DNA from: a bacterium
GTDB lineage: Bacteria > Bacillota_I > Bacilli_A > RF39 > UBA660
DNA length: 60,144 nt
NCBI GenBank assembly: GCA_004563275.1
Contig: SFSZ01000002.1
Span: 1-60,144, forward strand
Reading direction: 5' to 3'
The notes below the pieces were generated by a model. The model was not told the origin of the DNA, made no database searches, and saw only the letters and a list, made by a program, of their open reading frames with translations. Below, piece after piece: positions 10,153 to 19,969 of the stretch (its first letter is position 1; every line of letters starts with the position of its first letter). The position numbers and the translations under genes are program-made.

Positions 10153-11148
10153 TTATTTTTTTCTAAATACAATTAATTTACTTATAATGTAATTAGCAAT
10201 AACTATAATAAATTGAACAATTATTTTAGCTATTAATTCATCTATTTTCATGAATTTTACCATTAAAACTATTAGTCCGGTATCTAATAATAGTGTTAAT
10301 ACTCTAGAACCTGTAAATGAGATGAATTCTTTAATTACGTTTTTATTTTTACTTCTAAAAACAAATAATCTGTTAGTGTAGTAAGCAAATAGTACTGCAC
10401 AAATCCAAGATAAGATATTCGATGTTATTAAATCTAAATCCATGGCTTTTGAGCATAAGCCAAATGTGACAATACTTACTAGAGTTGTTAAACCGCCAAC
10501 TATTAAATAATTCCATAGTTCTTCATTTTTGTGATAAATGTCCCAACACCAATTCCATAATCTAACAATAAAATTAGGTTTATATGTTTTATAATCATAA
10601 ATTGTATTCTTCTTAATAAAATAACTTTTGTTGGCTAAGTCTAATAATGGTTTATCGTTTAAACTATCACTATACATTTCTTCAATAATAGCATCTTTAT
10701 ATAATTCTCTAAATCTTTTTACTTTTTCTTCTTTATAATTATTTGGTTTATTAAAATGTCCAGTTTTTTTATCTACATCGGAAGCTATTAAATCTTTGAC
10801 TTTTAATTCTTTACAAATTGGATTTAATAGAAATTCTGGTGATGCAGATATAATTATGTCATTCTTATGATCTTTAATCATGTAGAAGTTTTTTAGTTTT
10901 GTTTTATGCTCTTTCCAGAAGTTTTTTACTTCTTTATCAATATCATCAATATAGTTTACAAAAGAAAAAATATATTCTTTTAATTCAGTAACTGTTATTA
11001 ACTTTAATTTATATTTTATAAATTTTAATCCGATTTTTGGTAACATCTTTTTAATTTTAGGATTCTTTTTAAGACAATATTTAAAAAAGTCTACAGATGA
11101 ATCGCCATCATAAATTGTGCCATCAAAATCATATAAATATAATTTCAT
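10153..11148 (-). CDS. HAD-family phosphatase fused to a GtrA-like membrane domain
   Basis: A 331-residue two-domain protein. Residues 1 to about 190 form a HAD-IB-like phosphatase: nucleophile motif YDFDGTIYDGDSS (Asp7, Asp9), the SASPEF motif, and a late SDSLNDKPLL motif carrying the metal-binding Asp. Residues about 205-331 contain four membrane helices starting with NYLIVGGLTTLVSI, the GtrA pattern; GtrA proteins are thought to flip polyprenyl-phosphate-linked sugars. The fusion plus the pssA neighbour suggests a job in phospholipid or lipid-linked sugar metabolism (inference). A -10-like TACAAT lies just upstream. Confidence 0.85.
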   Translation of the reverse strand: MKLYLYDFDGTIYDGDSSVDFFKYCLKKNPKIKKMLPKIGLKFIKYKLKLITVTELKEYIFSFVNYIDDIDKEVKNFWKEHKTKLKNFYMIKDHKNDIIISASPEFLLNPICKELKVKDLIASDVDKKTGHFNKPNNYKEEKVKRFRELYKDAIIEEMYSDSLNDKPLLDLANKSYFIKKNTIYDYKTYKPNFIVRLWNWCWDIYHKNEELWNYLIVGGLTTLVSIVTFGLCSKAMDLDLITSNILSWICAVLFAYYTNRLFVFRSKNKNVIKEFISFTGSRVLTLLLDTGLIVLMVKFMKIDELIAKIIVQFIIVIANYIISKLIVFRKK

Positions 11149-12304: not shown

Positions 12305-12334
12305 CAAAATAAATAGCAAACATAAGAGTTTGCT
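12305..12334 (-). terminator. Terminator behind the membrane-anchored hypothetical gene
   Basis: An AGCAAAC/GTTTGCT hairpin (12315-12321 with 12328-12334), overlapping the stop codon, with a weak T-rich tail. Confidence 0.65.
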
Positions 12335-12980
12335 AACATTTCCAACCTTTATTATGATCTAAATTGGCAATTTTTTGAATTGTATTTTTTTCTAAATTGA
12401 TTTCAAATACTTCGACTACTTCTCCTTCTTTACCATTTGATTTTAATCCTTTGCATGAAGGAGTTCCATAATAAACTTTCTTTCCAGAAATAAGTGGTTT
12501 GGCATTACTATCGATATTTACATTTGATAAAAGAACTACATTGTTGTTTGTTACAACAGAAATAGCATTTTTTGATTCAAATAATATTCCTTTATTATTA
12601 AGACTATATGCTTCAATATCATTATTTTCTTTAAGAGAAAGTAATTGTTTATCACCTACAGAGAAATTTACTTTATTATCAACTATTTCAACATTAATAA
12701 TTTTATTATAATAATCAAATTTACCATCATTACTATCCATATTAAATATTAATTTTGGTTCGATTATTTCTTTTAATTTTTTGTGTTTAACTTTATCTTC
12801 TAGGTATGATTTTAATGTAGTTTGTGACGAATGTTCAATTTTGATTCCATTTACAATTTCAATAGATTCTTTGGAATTATCTTTTTTATTAGTAGAATTT
12901 TTTTTAATTAAAATTATTCCTACAATTAATAAGATAATAATTATAAATACACCCAGATATAATAATTTTTTATTCTTCAT
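12333..12980 (-). CDS. Membrane-anchored extracytoplasmic protein of unknown function
   Basis: A 215-residue protein not recognised. A short basic N-terminus, one membrane helix (about 6-25), a Lys/Ser/Asn-rich linker, then a soluble domain of repeated short beta-strand-like segments (VNFSVGDKQLLSL, GILFESKN, VVLLSNVNI, KVYYGTPSC), which hints at a small beta-propeller or beta-sandwich. It has two cysteines in the mature part, one of them the last residue. The ATG at 12978-12980 has a good AGAGGT site; a longer reading frame reaches back into truA but lacks one. It is probably cotranscribed with truA. Confidence 0.7.
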   Translation of the reverse strand: MKNKKLLYLGVFIIIILLIVGIILIKKNSTNKKDNSKESIEIVNGIKIEHSSQTTLKSYLEDKVKHKKLKEIIEPKLIFNMDSNDGKFDYYNKIINVEIVDNKVNFSVGDKQLLSLKENNDIEAYSLNNKGILFESKNAISVVTNNNVVLLSNVNIDSNAKPLISGKKVYYGTPSCKGLKSNGKEGEVVEVFEINLEKNTIQKIANLDHNKGWKC

Positions 12981-13030
12981 TTGGTACCTCTCTATTATCT
13001 TAATAACTATATCTTTTATTTTGAAAAATG

Positions 13031-13747
13031 TCAATATTTAACATTTCTTAAGTATAATCCATTTGGAGGAACAGTTATATAATTATGTTTTTTGCCTTCA
13101 AGCATTTCTTTGATATAAATTGGTGGCATTTTTTCTTCGCCAACTGATATTAGAGCTCCTACCATATTTCTAACCATATATCTATAGAAGCTTTTACCTT
13201 CAAACCTTATTAATAAGATGTCTTTTCTTTTATAAAATTTTATTTTATATATAACACTATTATAATTTTCTCTTTCTCCTGAAACAAATTCTTTATATGA
13301 ATGAAATCCTAAGAGATATTTTGATGCTTGTCTCATCTTTCTAATATTTAATTTATGACAATAATTATAGATATAGTCATTATCTATTGGATCGTATTCT
13401 CCTAAATTTATAACATATTCATAATACTTCTTTTTTACATCAAAACGAGCGTGAAAATTATCATTTACTTCAATAACTGAGTTAACGTATATGGCTGGAT
13501 CAATTAATGAATTTAAGGCTTCTTTTATATGATCTGTGGGGATATTAACATTTAAATCGAATGATATATATTGATTAAAAGCATGAACTCCTCGATCAGT
13601 TCTTCCAGATCCTTTAACATATACTATAGTTTTATTAATTTTAGTTAGGGCTTTTTCTAATTCACTTTGAACTGTTTTATGATTTTTTAATTTTTGAAAG
13701 CCATAAAATTTACTTCCATCATAACTGATACTTGCTAAATATCTCAT
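13031..13747 (-). CDS. truA: tRNA pseudouridine synthase A
   Basis: A 238-residue TruA, which makes pseudouridine at positions 38-40 of the tRNA anticodon arm. The catalytic motif GSGRTDRGVHA contains Asp51; the C-terminal FLYHQIR-like region reads FYRYMVRNMVG. The start codon overlaps the end of the upstream EcfA2-like gene by one base, the same linkage as in the Bacilli cluster ecfA1-ecfA2-ecfT-truA. Confidence 0.96.
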   Translation of the reverse strand: MRYLASISYDGSKFYGFQKLKNHKTVQSELEKALTKINKTIVYVKGSGRTDRGVHAFNQYISFDLNVNIPTDHIKEALNSLIDPAIYVNSVIEVNDNFHARFDVKKKYYEYVINLGEYDPIDNDYIYNYCHKLNIRKMRQASKYLLGFHSYKEFVSGERENYNSVIYKIKFYKRKDILLIRFEGKSFYRYMVRNMVGALISVGEEKMPPIYIKEMLEGKKHNYITVPPNGLYLRNVKY

Positions 13748-14364
13748 TAAAAGACACTCCTATAAATTCCTTTTAATAATTCCTTGTTATCTAAGGTATA
13801 TTCTAAATTAGCACCTTTTTCATTTGCCATATCAATGAATGTAATAATTGGAGGTTTATCTATGAAACCTTGTTTAATTGCGGTAAGAATATCACCTTGA
13901 TATTTAATAACTTTATTTTTAGATATTATAATATGTTTGGTAGTTTTATTAATAAAATTAATATCGTTAGATATTATTATAAAATTTGTTTTATGTTCAG
14001 CATTGACCGTTTTAATTAGTTTAGATATTTTAGATTTAATTTTACTATTAAAGCCTAAATCAAAATTATTTAAGATTATAACTTCTGGTTCTAGAGAGAT
14101 TGTATAAAGTAATAACGCTAATTTATATTCTCCGTAACTTAAATCATTAGTTTTTTTCTTTAATAAATCGGCGGTTATATTTAGAATTTGATTATACATT
14201 TTATTCTTAGGGATGTATCTACTTACTTTTGAATTTTTTTTTATTGTAGGAATTTTAATTTCATCTAGTAAAACTGTTAGGTCTTTGATTTCACCATAAA
14301 AGCCAATAAAATTTTTACTAGAAAAGTAGTTTGTACTAGCTTTTTTTACATACATTATTTCCAT
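13747..14364 (-). CDS. Degenerate EcfA2-like ABC ATPase homologue
   Basis: A 205-residue relative of the ECF transporter ATPase EcfA2 that has lost its catalytic motifs. The Walker A region reads GFYGEIKD (21-28), keeping three positions but with Ile for the second Gly and Asp for Ser/Thr. The signature is LSYGEYK (75-81), Walker B ends IILNN instead of ILDEP, and the H-loop is ISND. The C-terminal pattern GDILTAI...KPPIITFIDMANEKG matches the end of EcfA2, which argues for descent rather than chance. The frame is open, starts within the end of the EcfA1-like gene (10-base overlap) and runs into truA, so it is still organised as a translated gene. It cannot be an ordinary ATPase. Confidence 0.75.
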   Translation of the reverse strand: MEIMYVKKASTNYFSSKNFIGFYGEIKDLTVLLDEIKIPTIKKNSKVSRYIPKNKMYNQILNITADLLKKKTNDLSYGEYKLALLLYTISLEPEVIILNNFDLGFNSKIKSKISKLIKTVNAEHKTNFIIISNDINFINKTTKHIIISKNKVIKYQGDILTAIKQGFIDKPPIITFIDMANEKGANLEYTLDNKELLKGIYRSVF

Positions 14365-15101
14365 AATTCACCTACTAATGCTTTCATATCAAAATATTTT
14401 TCCTTTAGTAAATCATAGTAATTTAAATTGGTACTCATTTCAACAATAAAAGGAAGATGCATTCCTATTTTAGATAAATATTTATCGTCTGATAAGATAA
14501 TATCTGATGGTTCATATGCAACAACATGATTGTTATCTAAGATAATAATATCTGTTCCATATAATAATTCTTCTGGATTAGTTGTAACATTTAATATACA
14601 AATTTTATTATTTTTAGCATATTTTATTATTTTTAATTTTTGACTTGTAGTTAAGTATGTTAACATATCATCAATACCTAAAATACTTGGATTAATTATT
14701 AATAAAGATAAAATTTTAATAAATGCTTTTTCGTAAATTGTTAAATATTCAATTTTTGATTCTAGTAATTCTTCAATATCAAAAAATTTAGAAAATCTCT
14801 CAATGTTTTTATAAGCTACTTCTGGTGTTATATTTAATATATTTTGATAATATAATAATTCCTCTTTAACATAATTTGTTTTAAAATCAAAGTTATTTAA
14901 AACAGCTGCGATGTTCTTTCTTAAAAATTCAATATCTAAGTTACTTACTGGTGTATCATCTATCATTATATTGGAAGAATGAGTTTGATTTATTAATGTT
15001 TTTAAAATAAGTGTCTTTCCACTACTCATTGTTCCGATTATGTTGATAAATGGTGTTAATTTAATTTCTAAATCATAATCTTTGAAATATATTTTTTTCA
15101 T
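14355..15101 (-). CDS. Degenerate EcfA1-like ABC ATPase homologue
   Basis: A 248-residue relative of EcfA1. Walker A is intact (GTMSSGKT, residues 23-30), so nucleotide binding is possible. The Q-loop Gln is missing (VLNN), the signature LSGGQKQ is replaced by LTIYEKA (120-126), the Walker B end reads GIDDM with Asp for the catalytic Glu, and the H-loop His is absent (NVTTNP). The C-terminus SKIGMHLPFIVEMS and LVGELWK closely follows EcfA1. Expected partners EcfT and an S component are not encoded here. A ribosome binding site (GGGGTGATAA) precedes the ATG, so expression is likely; present function is unknown. Confidence 0.75.
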   Translation of the reverse strand: MKKIYFKDYDLEIKLTPFINIIGTMSSGKTLILKTLINQTHSSNIMIDDTPVSNLDIEFLRKNIAAVLNNFDFKTNYVKEELLYYQNILNITPEVAYKNIERFSKFFDIEELLESKIEYLTIYEKAFIKILSLLIINPSILGIDDMLTYLTTSQKLKIIKYAKNNKICILNVTTNPEELLYGTDIIILDNNHVVAYEPSDIILSDDKYLSKIGMHLPFIVEMSTNLNYYDLLKEKYFDMKALVGELWK

Positions 15102-16410: not shown

Positions 16411-16437
16411 TAAAAAAAGTGTTAATTTAACACTTTT
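16411..16437 (-). terminator. Terminator of the 16.4-16.9 kb gene
   Basis: A ten-base-pair hairpin AAAGTGTTAA/TTAACACTTT with a T tract on the minus strand. Confidence 0.85.
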
Positions 16438-16913
16438 TCATAATCTGTTACACTTTCATAATATTTAGACACTTTTCCATTTTTAATTAATACTAGAGCA
16501 GAATCTTTTACTTGTACTTCACTTGCTTTTGTTGGTTTTTTATTTGACTTATCACTTACGTAAGGGCTATTGAATTTTGTACTTAAATCAACAAAATATA
16601 TTTTTTTAGCATTATCTTTCTTTTCATAATTAGAAATTAAAGATTGATATTGTGATGCACTTGATGATGTTGAATCGTATAAGAATACGTAGTATTCATC
16701 ATAAGGTCTATTAAACATAGTTCCTACAGTGCATTCTGTATAATCAAATTCTACTGTTGATGTATCTTTATTTTTCTTTGATAAAATTGTATCTGTTAGA
16801 AAATAAAGACCAACAGCTAAAGCAATTAAGATTACAGCTATAATTATTAAATTTCTAATTTCTTTTGTGTCTTCACTATCATATCTTTGTGTTTTTAATC
16901 TTTTTTGTTTCAT
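16422..16913 (-). CDS. Membrane-anchored thioredoxin-fold-like protein without a CxxC motif
   Basis: A 163-residue protein: basic cytoplasmic tail (1-20), one membrane helix (about 22-43) and an external domain whose layout (a YYVFLYDS strand, a helix, IYFVDLS strand, ALVLIKNGKVSKYYE) follows the thioredoxin fold. The redox site region reads YDSTSSSASQY, without cysteines, and the cis-Pro is missing, so disulfide chemistry is unlikely. The only cysteine (CTVG) is near the membrane. A related lipoprotein is at 54055-54498. It has its own promoter and terminator. Confidence 0.65.
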   Translation of the reverse strand: MKQKRLKTQRYDSEDTKEIRNLIIIAVILIALAVGLYFLTDTILSKKNKDTSTVEFDYTECTVGTMFNRPYDEYYVFLYDSTSSSASQYQSLISNYEKKDNAKKIYFVDLSTKFNSPYVSDKSNKKPTKASEVQVKDSALVLIKNGKVSKYYESVTDYEKVLN

Positions 16914-17091: not shown

Positions 17092-17952
17092 TTATTCTTC
17101 AATATTTATAGAACCTGTTTTTTCCAATTCTTCTTTTTCAACTCTAGTTGTTAAGCTTAATCCGATTACAAAAATAAAACTTAGGAAATATATCCATAAC
17201 ATTAATACTGCTATATTTGATAAGCCTGCATAGAAGATGTCATATCTAGCAAAATGAGATGTATAATATCCATATATTTCTGTTGTTAAAATCCATCCAA
17301 CTGTTGTAAATATGGCACCAAAATTAATTTGTGATGCAGGAATGTGTTTGTCAGGGGCGATAGTAAATATAGTTTTTATAAACGCAAAGATAATTAACCA
17401 AGATATGGGTCCTTGAATAATTTTTAAAATGCTCGTTATGATATTTTTTAAATTAAAGTAATCAAATGCATCTATTATTTTTTCACCAAGAAGTGGAACA
17501 ATAAGTACAAACAGATATAAAACTATTATAAGAAAGGTTAATCCAATAGCTTTGATTCTTCTTTTTAGCCATGTACTTTGTTTAATTCCATATATTTCAT
17601 TGGCTGTAATAATAATAGAATCAGCACTATTTGATGCAAAATATAACATAATTATTATCATGCAAATATAATTAAAATCTAAAGATTTACCACTAATAAT
17701 TGGAACTATTAGTTTTACTATACTTTGATCAAAATTTGCTTTTAAAAATTCTATGATTGTATCTATTGATATGTTAAAGAATGAGGCTCCATAACCAATT
17801 ATTGTTATGATTGGAACTAGGGATAATACTAAGAAAAAGGCCAGTTGTCCTGGCAAAATTGCCATTTCTGGTCTATTTAATATTTCCCAAACTTTTTTTA
17901 TGAATGCTTTAGCACGATTAATTTGTTTACTAAAGGATTTCTTTTTCTTCAT
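17092..17952 (-). CDS. YihY/BrkB family inner membrane protein
   Basis: A 286-residue protein with six hydrophobic segments and the family motif LPGQLAFFLVLSLVPIITI near residue 35, plus the late AVLMLWIYFLS segment. Members were once taken for RNase BN, which is wrong; a transport role is suspected. The start overlaps the end of the GGDEF receptor gene by 23 bases with an AGAGG site 9 bases upstream, so the three genes 20448-17092 form one operon. Confidence 0.92.
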   Translation of the reverse strand: MKKKKSFSKQINRAKAFIKKVWEILNRPEMAILPGQLAFFLVLSLVPIITIIGYGASFFNISIDTIIEFLKANFDQSIVKLIVPIISGKSLDFNYICMIIIMLYFASNSADSIIITANEIYGIKQSTWLKRRIKAIGLTFLIIVLYLFVLIVPLLGEKIIDAFDYFNLKNIITSILKIIQGPISWLIIFAFIKTIFTIAPDKHIPASQINFGAIFTTVGWILTTEIYGYYTSHFARYDIFYAGLSNIAVLMLWIYFLSFIFVIGLSLTTRVEKEELEKTGSINIEE

Positions 17953-19969
17953 TTGATTCAGCCTCTATCTCTTTATTCTCTCTCATTTGAATTGTTGCTT
18001 CATTAATTGCATCGTCTATCAATTTCAAATCATCTACTATCATACTAAAACCAAATGCAGCACCATATTCATATGGTAAATCATTAAATTCTTTAACTAA
18101 TTTCTTTAAATAATTAATTACTTGTTTTTCTTGATATCCAACTAAATATATCATAAATTCATTACCATCAGTTCTCATAATTTCAGTATTATCTAATTGG
18201 GTTTGGTGAAGAATATTAGCAGCAGCCATAATTTGTTTGTCGCCTTCTTCATGACCAAATGTATCATTTAAATACTTAATATTATTTAAATCGATAACTA
18301 TGATTGCTTGAGGATAAATAGTGTTTTGATTCCAGATATCCATTCTCTCATTTAAGTAATTTCGATTTTTTAATGATGTTAACATATCAACATATTTTAA
18401 CTTTTCGTCTTTTCTGATTTTTGAGTTCATTTTAATATGTTTCTTTGAATAGATTACAATTCCAATTACAGCAACTGAGAATGTGATAATAATTAAAGCA
18501 TATTTAGCAATTGTACTTGCAGTATTACCATTTGTTTCTGCTTGTTCATAAGATAAAAGACCACTTCTTAACATATCACTGCTACTTAATCTATTAATAT
18601 AAGATTTAAATAGTTTATAGAATGTATCAGTATTATTAACATATTTAAATGTATAATTATCAGTTGTATATCCAGTATAACTTACATAGTAATTATCTAT
18701 TTTTTTATTTTGATAATATTCATATGTTGTAGCATCTAAAGCAATTAGTGAACCTTTTTTTACTTGTTTAAGTAGATTTTTTTCACTTGTTACTTCTTCT
18801 AAGTTAATATTATTTTTTGTTTTTAAATATTTTGATAATTCACTATTTTCAATTACATAAATAGTTTCATTTGATATTTCACTTAAATCATTATATAAAT
18901 GGTTATCTTTTAAAGGACTAATTATATAAAATTTTTCATTTATGTTTGTTTTAATGAAATGATTACCTGATGTTAGTGATGTATCGTTAAAGATTAAATC
19001 AACTTTATTATTATTGAAAGCTTTGATTAAAGCATTATAGTTTTTATATTTGTTATATTTAAATTCAACTTTACTAAATTTACTAAAGTCTTTTAAATAT
19101 TCGATTATCATTCCACCATATTTTGAACTACTTAAAGTTTGATATGGGGTACTGTTTACAAATCCAAAGGTATAAACTTTATTTGTTAAAGTATCGGTTT
19201 CTAATTCAGTAAGTCCTAATTTTTCAACATATAAATTATATAGATTTGTATAATAACTTGTTTCTAAATTTTCTTTAGACCAAATATTATAGAATTTTTT
19301 AACAATTGAATTAAATTTTTCGTTATCTCCTAGTTTAATATAGTAATTTAATACTAGGTTGTCTAAATGATAAATTATATTGTAATTATTAGTTATAATC
19401 TCATCTAAATATTCATTAAGTGGAATTATCATATAATTAATATTTTTGTTAGTCATGGCTGCTAATAATTTATCTTTTGTTTCATAAGTACTAAATGTTA
19501 TTGATGTTTTATAACTTGAATTAACTCTTGAAATGCCATCAGCTAAGCCACCAATTGTTTTACCATTTAAATCAGTTATTGATGTTACAACTTCATAGTC
19601 TCTTCCTATAATTACATAGTGATCTTGATAAAATAATAAGTCATTATCAGTTATGTCTTTTGTAACAGCAAAACCAATACCAGTTCCACCACTAATTGGA
19701 GTTATTTTTTTATCTACATTTATATCATATTTATTGCTTAATTCATCTAGATAATCATAGAATACACCTTTACCATCTTTACCAAATACATTAAGGTCTG
19801 ATGGTACATTAAAGGAAACGATATTTGATTTATTATCATTTATCCATTCTTTTTCAGAAATATTTAATTTATTAGCATCATAAAAATAATTGTAATAAAC
19901 AAATATACCTATAATTGCAGCAACTACAAGCGATATAATTGTTATAATTAATTTCTTTTTTCGTTTCAT
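17930..19969 (-). CDS. Receptor with periplasmic-type substrate-binding domains and variant GGDEF domain
   Basis: A 679-residue membrane sensor. In order: N-terminal helix (about 7-27), two SBP_bac_3-like substrate-binding modules (about 40-255 and 262-475), a second membrane helix (about 485-508) and a diguanylate-cyclase-type domain starting YVDMLTSLKNRNYL. Substrate motifs of that domain are there (DLNNIKYLNDTFGHEEGD), but the GGDEF loop reads DGNEF (601-605) and there is no RxxD inhibitory site. Loss of the metal-binding Asp suggests weak or no cyclase activity. The layout means an external amino-acid-like ligand is sensed. Start ATG overlaps the upstream stop by one base with GGTGA before it. 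Confidence 0.88.
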   Translation of the reverse strand: MKRKKKLIITIISLVVAAIIGIFVYYNYFYDANKLNISEKEWINDNKSNIVSFNVPSDLNVFGKDGKGVFYDYLDELSNKYDINVDKKITPISGGTGIGFAVTKDITDNDLLFYQDHYVIIGRDYEVVTSITDLNGKTIGGLADGISRVNSSYKTSITFSTYETKDKLLAAMTNKNINYMIIPLNEYLDEIITNNYNIIYHLDNLVLNYYIKLGDNEKFNSIVKKFYNIWSKENLETSYYTNLYNLYVEKLGLTELETDTLTNKVYTFGFVNSTPYQTLSSSKYGGMIIEYLKDFSKFSKVEFKYNKYKNYNALIKAFNNNKVDLIFNDTSLTSGNHFIKTNINEKFYIISPLKDNHLYNDLSEISNETIYVIENSELSKYLKTKNNINLEEVTSEKNLLKQVKKGSLIALDATTYEYYQNKKIDNYYVSYTGYTTDNYTFKYVNNTDTFYKLFKSYINRLSSSDMLRSGLLSYEQAETNGNTASTIAKYALIIITFSVAVIGIVIYSKKHIKMNSKIRKDEKLKYVDMLTSLKNRNYLNERMDIWNQNTIYPQAIIVIDLNNIKYLNDTFGHEEGDKQIMAAANILHQTQLDNTEIMRTDGNEFMIYLVGYQEKQVINYLKKLVKEFNDLPYEYGAAFGFSMIVDDLKLIDDAINEATIQMRENKEIEAESNEEKEIL

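Follow-up and report, generated by a model that had tools for sequence, protein, structure and literature searches.

Two genes for ATPase-like proteins related to EcfA1 and EcfA2 (here A1 and A2) lie directly in front of truA in the window, the whole 60,144-nucleotide stretch of DNA analyzed here. The pair is probably a remnant of EcfA1-EcfA2 that has stayed under selection after loss of the transporter, as a pseudo-ATPase scaffold or regulator working outside transport. The homology of the two proteins, their loss of motifs, the absence from relatives of EcfT and of the S-component families searched, purifying selection, models with the EcfA fold, conservation of the C-terminal domains and linkage to truA are all established by the analysis. 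The preliminary description had taken the locus for a single "ghost" operon, which is not borne out: the pair is a conserved family, with 114 relatives of A1 and 85 of A2 in a protein search at E <= 1e-3, most of them about 248 and 205 aa long, and a few members of this set being fragments or ordinary EcfA. RF39, an uncultivated order of Bacilli, is characterized in the available part of PMC12306168 as genome-reduced, with many auxotrophies, and the available part of PMC8046335 gives ecfA1-ecfA2-ecfT-truA as the ancestral order in Bacilli.

The locus and its two ATPase-like proteins

Reading along the minus strand of the window, a gene for an S41 protease is followed by those for A1, A2 and TruA (Table 1). 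When coordinates and frames were re-read, the order first reported for these last three, with tight overlaps and no ecfT between, proved exact; the A2 stop and the truA start have one base in common, and there is no room for an ecfT between the two genes. Three EcfT profiles run against all 149 stop-to-stop frames of the window that reach 60 codons or more detected no EcfT (best 9.9 bits), and the TruA of the window matches TIGR00071 at 200.8 bits (cut-off 142.85).

Table 1. Features of the pseudo-ATPase and truA locus (window coordinates)
Feature	Position	Strand	Basis
EcfA1-like pseudo-ATPase (A1), 248 aa	14355..15101	minus	frames, NCBIfam, motifs, structure model
EcfA2-like pseudo-ATPase (A2), 205 aa, without Walker A	13747..14364	minus	frames, profile match
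truA, tRNA pseudouridine(38-40) synthase, intact, 238 aa	13031..13747	minus	TIGR00071
A1 Walker A, GTMSSGKT, the sole nucleotide-binding motif that is whole	15012..15035	minus	alignment
A1 C-terminal domain, residues about 206-248	14358..14486	minus	information content
A2 C-terminal domain, residues about 166-205	13750..13869	minus	information content
A1/A2 overlap of 10 nt, ATGGAAATAA	14355..14364	minus	A1 end (W-K-stop) and A2 start (M-E-I) on the same bases
AGGAG in the last A2 codons (Arg-Ser of IYRSVF), putative truA ribosome-binding site	13757..13761	minus	likely function, judged from sequence

Four other minus-strand stretches of the window drew attention. Between truA and the glycosyltransferase-4 gene lies a TTG-start frame (12333-13034) that looks membrane-anchored or lipoprotein-like and is absent from that place in loci L196 and L197, and at 16422-16913 there is a membrane-anchored frame of 163 aa with no Pfam match, a similar frame being found at the same place in both of those loci. 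Positions 17930-19969 combine an SBP_bac_3-like stretch (24.0 bits, under the cut-off of 26.4) with a C-terminal GGDEF domain, and at 10153-11148 an N-terminal half resembling HAD phosphatases is, by eye, fused to a GtrA-like membrane C-terminal half.

A genome scan with TruA led to one relative, L001, in a metagenome-assembled genome of uncultured Erysipelotrichaceae bacterium RUG12877, which has A1-A2-truA with no ecfT between. A window-like A1 is present in all four genomes analyzed from its genus, and every one of these loci reads A1-A2-truA. In the two loci followed further out (L196 and L197) the gene order, by eye, resembles that of the window over six genes: a frame of 160-164 aa, S41 protease, A1, A2, truA and a glycosyltransferase-4-like gene. 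Of 385 genomes sampled from the order, 54 encode proteins resembling the window A2 at E <= 1e-12.

The two proteins are relatives of EcfA1 and EcfA2, C-terminal domain included, and profiles, PDB matches and models agree on this. The best NCBIfam model for A1 is ECF_ATPase_1 (TIGR04520; E 7e-22, 78.1 bits, below the equivalog cut-off of 315) and that for A2 is ECF_ATPase_2 (TIGR04521; E 2e-9, 36.8 bits, below the equivalog cut-off of 330). Pfam ABC_tran matches A1 at 34.8 bits, and no Pfam family matches A2 at E <= 1. The structure model of A1 is confident (pLDDT 88.0, pTM 0.84) except for its last 18 residues, which are poor; its nearest solved structures are EcfA/CbiO chains, while a PDB profile search with A2 returned EcfA2 mixed among many other ABC proteins. 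Both models fold as EcfA in a comparison by VIA-align, the list used there spanning many ABC families, with unlisted ABC families also conceivable as matches.

Motif alignment confirmed the reported loss of Walker A, of the Walker B glutamate and of the H-loop histidine from A2, in which ILNN stands in place of DE and the H-loop reads ISND, and the Q-loop and signature are gone as well. A1 had been said to keep only its Walker A, and the alignment agrees as to the Q-loop, the signature (LTIYE in place of LSGGQ), the catalytic glutamate and the histidine (H-loop VTTN), all of them lost, but the Walker B aspartate is also kept, in ILGIDD, where the glutamate has become aspartate. The A1 Walker A itself, GTMSSGKT, is well preserved: residues G23, S27, G28 and K29 are invariant in an alignment of 29 sequences, and G28 and K29 stand at 90% or more in a larger set of 58. 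Taking a working ABC ATPase to need Walker A, the Walker B glutamate and the H-loop histidine in one subunit, neither member of the window pair has them all.

EcfT, S-components and catalytic sites across the family

The loss was followed through 145 genomes of one GTDB family, a sample of that family reached through a rumen relative. EcfT (PF02361) exceeds its cut-off in 50 of them, and truA was found in 135. The truA loci of 121 of these were analyzed with their upstream DNA, the other 14 truA-positive genomes being left out (3 had fragments only and 11 ranked among the weaker half of the matches), and with the window they make 122 loci. Two A-type frames precede truA in 111 of the 122, with EcfT adjacent in 51; no pair is in view in the other 11, two of which lie at contig ends and nine of which are truly without it. 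Three of the 111 pairs were set aside (G130 with a split frame, G125 at a contig end and G120 with wrong frames), so that 108 were classified, from 107 genomes and the window: EcfT is full in 41, decayed in 11 and absent in 56, the window among these last. The frame split in G130 (L139), a full-EcfT genome, divides A2 into 301 and 92 aa and is either a pseudogene or an assembly error.

A complete cis ATPase site (Walker A, Walker B glutamate and H-loop histidine) is found in 33 of the 41 pairs with full EcfT, in none of the 11 with decayed EcfT and in one of the 56 without it. Five of the 11 decayed EcfT score below 100 bits, and six consist of a hydrophobic frame of 194-228 aa in the gap between A2 and truA. 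Remnants of EcfT of 194-228 aa, in frame between A2 and truA and with part of the membrane domain gone, were seen at L153, L171, L158, L175, L120, L143, L163, L179 and L123; the two tested against Pfam (L153 and L175) were not recognized. EcfT is thus indeed missing at the window, as had been stated, but this is the last stage of a stepwise loss, of which 11 relatives still show remnants, and not the result of a single deletion; decayed EcfT and gradual loss of motifs supply the intermediate states for which a check of relatives had been proposed. On the TruA tree, in which few branches are well supported, parsimony requires 15 or more changes in EcfT presence; a sign test on this tree, with only 3 independent pairs on well-supported branches, was not significant.

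A second EcfT elsewhere had also been suggested as a thing to look for. A decayed-EcfT profile made from the family matches 66 of the 145 genomes. It finds nothing in the other 79, among them G001, the closest relative genome searched, where neither PF02361 nor this profile detected an EcfT; a distant EcfT was rejected for G001 on these grounds.

The proteins shorten as the transporter disappears, lengths being counted from the first possible start codon. Median lengths with full EcfT are 269 aa for A1 and 280 aa for A2, and the minima without EcfT are 149 and 181 aa; A1 and A2 shorten jointly (Spearman 0.51, n=56, p 7e-5, not corrected for kinship). Among the 56 pairs without EcfT, A1 shows the Walker A pattern in 46 and A2 in six. 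Eight of the ten A1 failures have no Gly-Lys core, and two differ only at the first glycine. The eight that lost the Gly-Lys core, A1 forms of 149-157 aa among them, still have A1, A2 and truA side by side.

Of the S-component families searched, PF12822 is over cut-off in 3 of the 145 genomes, PF07155 in 2 and BioY (PF02632) in none. PF07456, which we take to belong to the same Pfam clan as the S-components and of which one member also matches PF12822 just under cut-off, occurs in 31 of the 145, of which 25 are classified as full-EcfT, none is otherwise classified and 6 are unclassified. This S-like family, of the Gx type, is therefore present in 25 of 41 full-EcfT genomes vs 0 of 66 others (Fisher p 6e-14, not corrected for kinship); since among the classified genomes it is missing wherever full EcfT is missing, transport seems, as far as sequence can tell, to have been lost as a whole together with EcfT. 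PF07456 is absent from 16 of the 41 full-EcfT genomes, for which one has to suppose either a different S-component or incomplete assemblies. G001 has no S-component of the four families PF12822, PF07155, PF02632 and PF07456. At L188, L190 and L192 the PF07456-type gene adjoins one for a small lipoprotein, FMN-binding-like by eye. Separate three-gene S-A-T operons with a motif-complete ATPase were found in two of the 145 genomes, G127 (L194) and G093 (L195), both of which are among those over cut-off with PF12822 or PF07155, and in G127 this operon exists besides the dead A1-A2 pair at truA.

Among the 30 best of 177 genomes matched through A1, A2 is next in all 30, and then comes truA in 21, EcfT in 7 and a contig edge in 2; where truA loci have no EcfT at all, the pair stands directly before truA in 56 of 65. 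Upstream of A1, 38 of the 105 pairs with a neighbor in view have a short-chain-dehydrogenase-like gene (20 of 55 among those without EcfT), and the others have various genes. In G101 (L121), G067 (L142) and G028 (L180) such a dehydrogenase-like gene, elsewhere the most frequent neighbor of A1, lies 2-5 nt before truA and the pair is gone, from which it follows that the pair can be cut out cleanly. A whole-genome search of these three with an A2 profile gave only ordinary ABC matches (best 98 bits); true A2 proteins score 217 (G006) and 200 (G034) with the same profile. The nine of 122 loci without the pair indicate that truA does without A1-A2.

Selection and the retreat of conservation

The dN/dS check proposed for both frames gives values that are not near 1. 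Estimated by NG86 on four pairs of EcfT-less species, with synonymous sites near saturation in several, dN/dS is 0.10, 0.18, 0.43 and 0.14 for A1, 0.18, 0.25, 0.33 and 0.05 for A2, and 0.07, 0.18, 0.50 and 0.15 for TruA, so that the values for A1 and A2 together (0.05-0.43) fall largely within the TruA range (0.07-0.50). Among the A1 matches listed, which cover 386 genomes, none has an internal stop; in a neutral simulation a stop-free pair persists in 2.6% of runs at 0.05 changes per site and in 0.2% at 0.1. Together with the intermediates, these results support the earlier argument for selection rather than simple decay. Constraint has nevertheless been partly relaxed, since A1 and A2 evolve faster without EcfT: at equal TruA divergence both have lower similarity where EcfT is absent than where it is present, A1 identity, for instance, being 0.34 without EcfT vs 0.43 with it where TruA identity is near 0.58.

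The Walker/Q-loop half has lost much of its conservation, which has retreated towards the C-terminal domain. For A1 in EcfT-less pairs, the fraction of information content retained is 0.40 in the Q-loop block (76-90 of the reference), 0.64 in the whole N-terminal part and 0.93 in the C-terminal domain; the corresponding values for A2 are 0.58 for the N-terminal part and 0.80 for the C-terminal domain, the last 10 residues being excluded from both C-terminal figures. Those residues were left out of the argument because the overlap and the likely ribosome-binding site lock them: the 10-nt overlap of A1 and A2 occurs in 102 of 108 pairs. The near-invariant tails "LWK" of A1 and "IYR" of A2 were likewise dropped as signs of protein constraint, on account of this overlap and of the AGGAG in the window A2. 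The low-confidence last 18 residues of the A1 model fall in the C-terminal domain that is claimed to matter.

Possible roles of the pair

Compared with the ecfA1-ecfA2-ecfT-truA system of Bacilli, the window locus has the same gene order, EcfA1 and EcfA2 homology that takes in the C-terminal domain, and the EcfA fold; it differs in having no EcfT, in that both ATPase sites are dead, in the absence of an S-component of the four families from its nearest relative genome G001, and in an A2 about 75 residues below the full-EcfT median of 280 aa. SufC, ABC-F and RLI are ABC ATPases without membrane domains that hydrolyze ATP. The window proteins resemble these in being soluble, of the ABC fold and outside transport, and some ABC ATPases free of membrane domains appear among their distant matches, but the window pair descends from transporter ATPases and has no catalytic residues. 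In degenerate-site ABC transporters one site still works and the membrane domains are retained. As far as the available part of PMC7756269 describes them, one of their subunits keeps nucleotide-binding residues without the catalytic glutamate, as A1 does, whereas in the window both subunits are incomplete and a membrane subunit is lacking. A full-text search of the open-licence literature found no published description of an ATPase pair kept without its transporter.

The course of events that we favor would comprise decay of the catalytic residues, disappearance of the S-component and an EcfT that shrinks and then vanishes, with A1 and A2 remaining in frame, overlapping and before truA in most EcfT-less loci. 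The C-terminal domain of ECF ATPases is a dimerization domain, and to judge from the sequences A1 and A2 may still form a heterodimer through it. In most species A1 could probably hold a nucleotide and would be unable to hydrolyze it, so the dimer would act as a soluble scaffold or regulator and not as a motor. Of the "nucleotide-binding scaffold" suggested at the outset, the first term is upheld by the A1 Walker A pattern in 46 of the 56 EcfT-less pairs and limited by the eight without the Gly-Lys core; as these are still linked to truA, nucleotide binding cannot be what the pair does in general. The lack of EcfT and of an S-component of the four families in G001, together with dN/dS, supports a role outside transport. 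Given the translational coupling to truA, the foremost candidate for a partner is TruA or the handling of tRNA, and one tentative possibility, the least certain step of the explanation, is that the partner is TruA or the tRNA/translation machinery from the same message.

The alternative that survives best, possible though on balance doubtful, is that the role outside transport has nothing to do with truA, the partner being for example a membrane or stress protein, and that truA is an inherited neighbor. The available part of PMC8046335, in giving the ancestral order of Bacilli, allows the adjacency to need no new reason, and truA does without the pair in nine of 122 loci; on the other side, A1-A2 keeps its place in front of truA while the gene on the far side of A1 changes from pair to pair. 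The scaffold part is common to this alternative and to the retained pseudo-ATPase pair that we favor, and it is the partner that differs.

The main rival, and only a partial one, holds that the frames stay open just to deliver ribosomes to truA, the proteins being idle. The 10-nt A1/A2 overlap in 102 of 108 pairs, the AGGAG in the window A2 and the 1-nt overlap with truA are what such a leader would show, and it would account for both the open frames and the linkage. It leaves unexplained dN/dS of 0.05-0.43 over whole genes, conservation of the C-terminal domains beyond the last 10 residues and the kept P-loop of A1; protein-level constraint and the nine pair-less loci, in three of which a different gene immediately precedes truA, speak against it as the whole story, which makes it improbable.

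That the pair still drives transport, with an unrecognized EcfT or membrane partner, is less probable again. EcfT does decay beyond the reach of Pfam in the two remnants tested, A1 keeps its P-loop, the search of its own genome covered the 60-kb window, and the 16 of 41 full-EcfT genomes without PF07456 suggest that an unrecognized S-component may exist. The decayed-EcfT profile, however, finds nothing in G001 or in 78 others of the 145 genomes, G001 has no PF12822, PF07155, BioY or PF07456 proteins, neither subunit has the catalytic glutamate or histidine any longer, and little conservation is left in the Q-loop/coupling block of A1. Plain pseudogenes, decaying slowly in shrinking genomes, would fit the gradual loss of motifs and length, the partly relaxed rates and the clean loss in nine of 122 loci, but were rejected as the least probable reading of all, with dN/dS resembling that of TruA and not near 1, A1 matches that, as listed from the 386 genomes, are free of internal stops, near-constant lengths in the clade of the window and confident structure models.

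A bolder proposal, rather unlikely on the present evidence, is that EcfA1-EcfA2 has an old second job, independent of transport and tied to TruA or translation, which predates the loss of the transporter. Repeated loss of transport, with the pair mostly staying, would then have laid this job bare, and the minimal cores of about 150 residues for A1 (with no nucleotide site) and about 180 for A2 would still be kept for it. If this were so, the ecfA1-ecfA2-ecfT-truA order of Bacilli would reflect more than shared transcription. The family would provide a natural series, densely sampled, of a transporter taken apart, with its substrate subunit, its catalysis and its membrane subunit lost while the ATPase pair stays under selection. 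Such a series would point to the C-terminal domain of EcfA as the part that matters without transport, and it would offer constructs for testing what EcfA1-EcfA2 does beyond transport, possibly with TruA, across the Bacilli.
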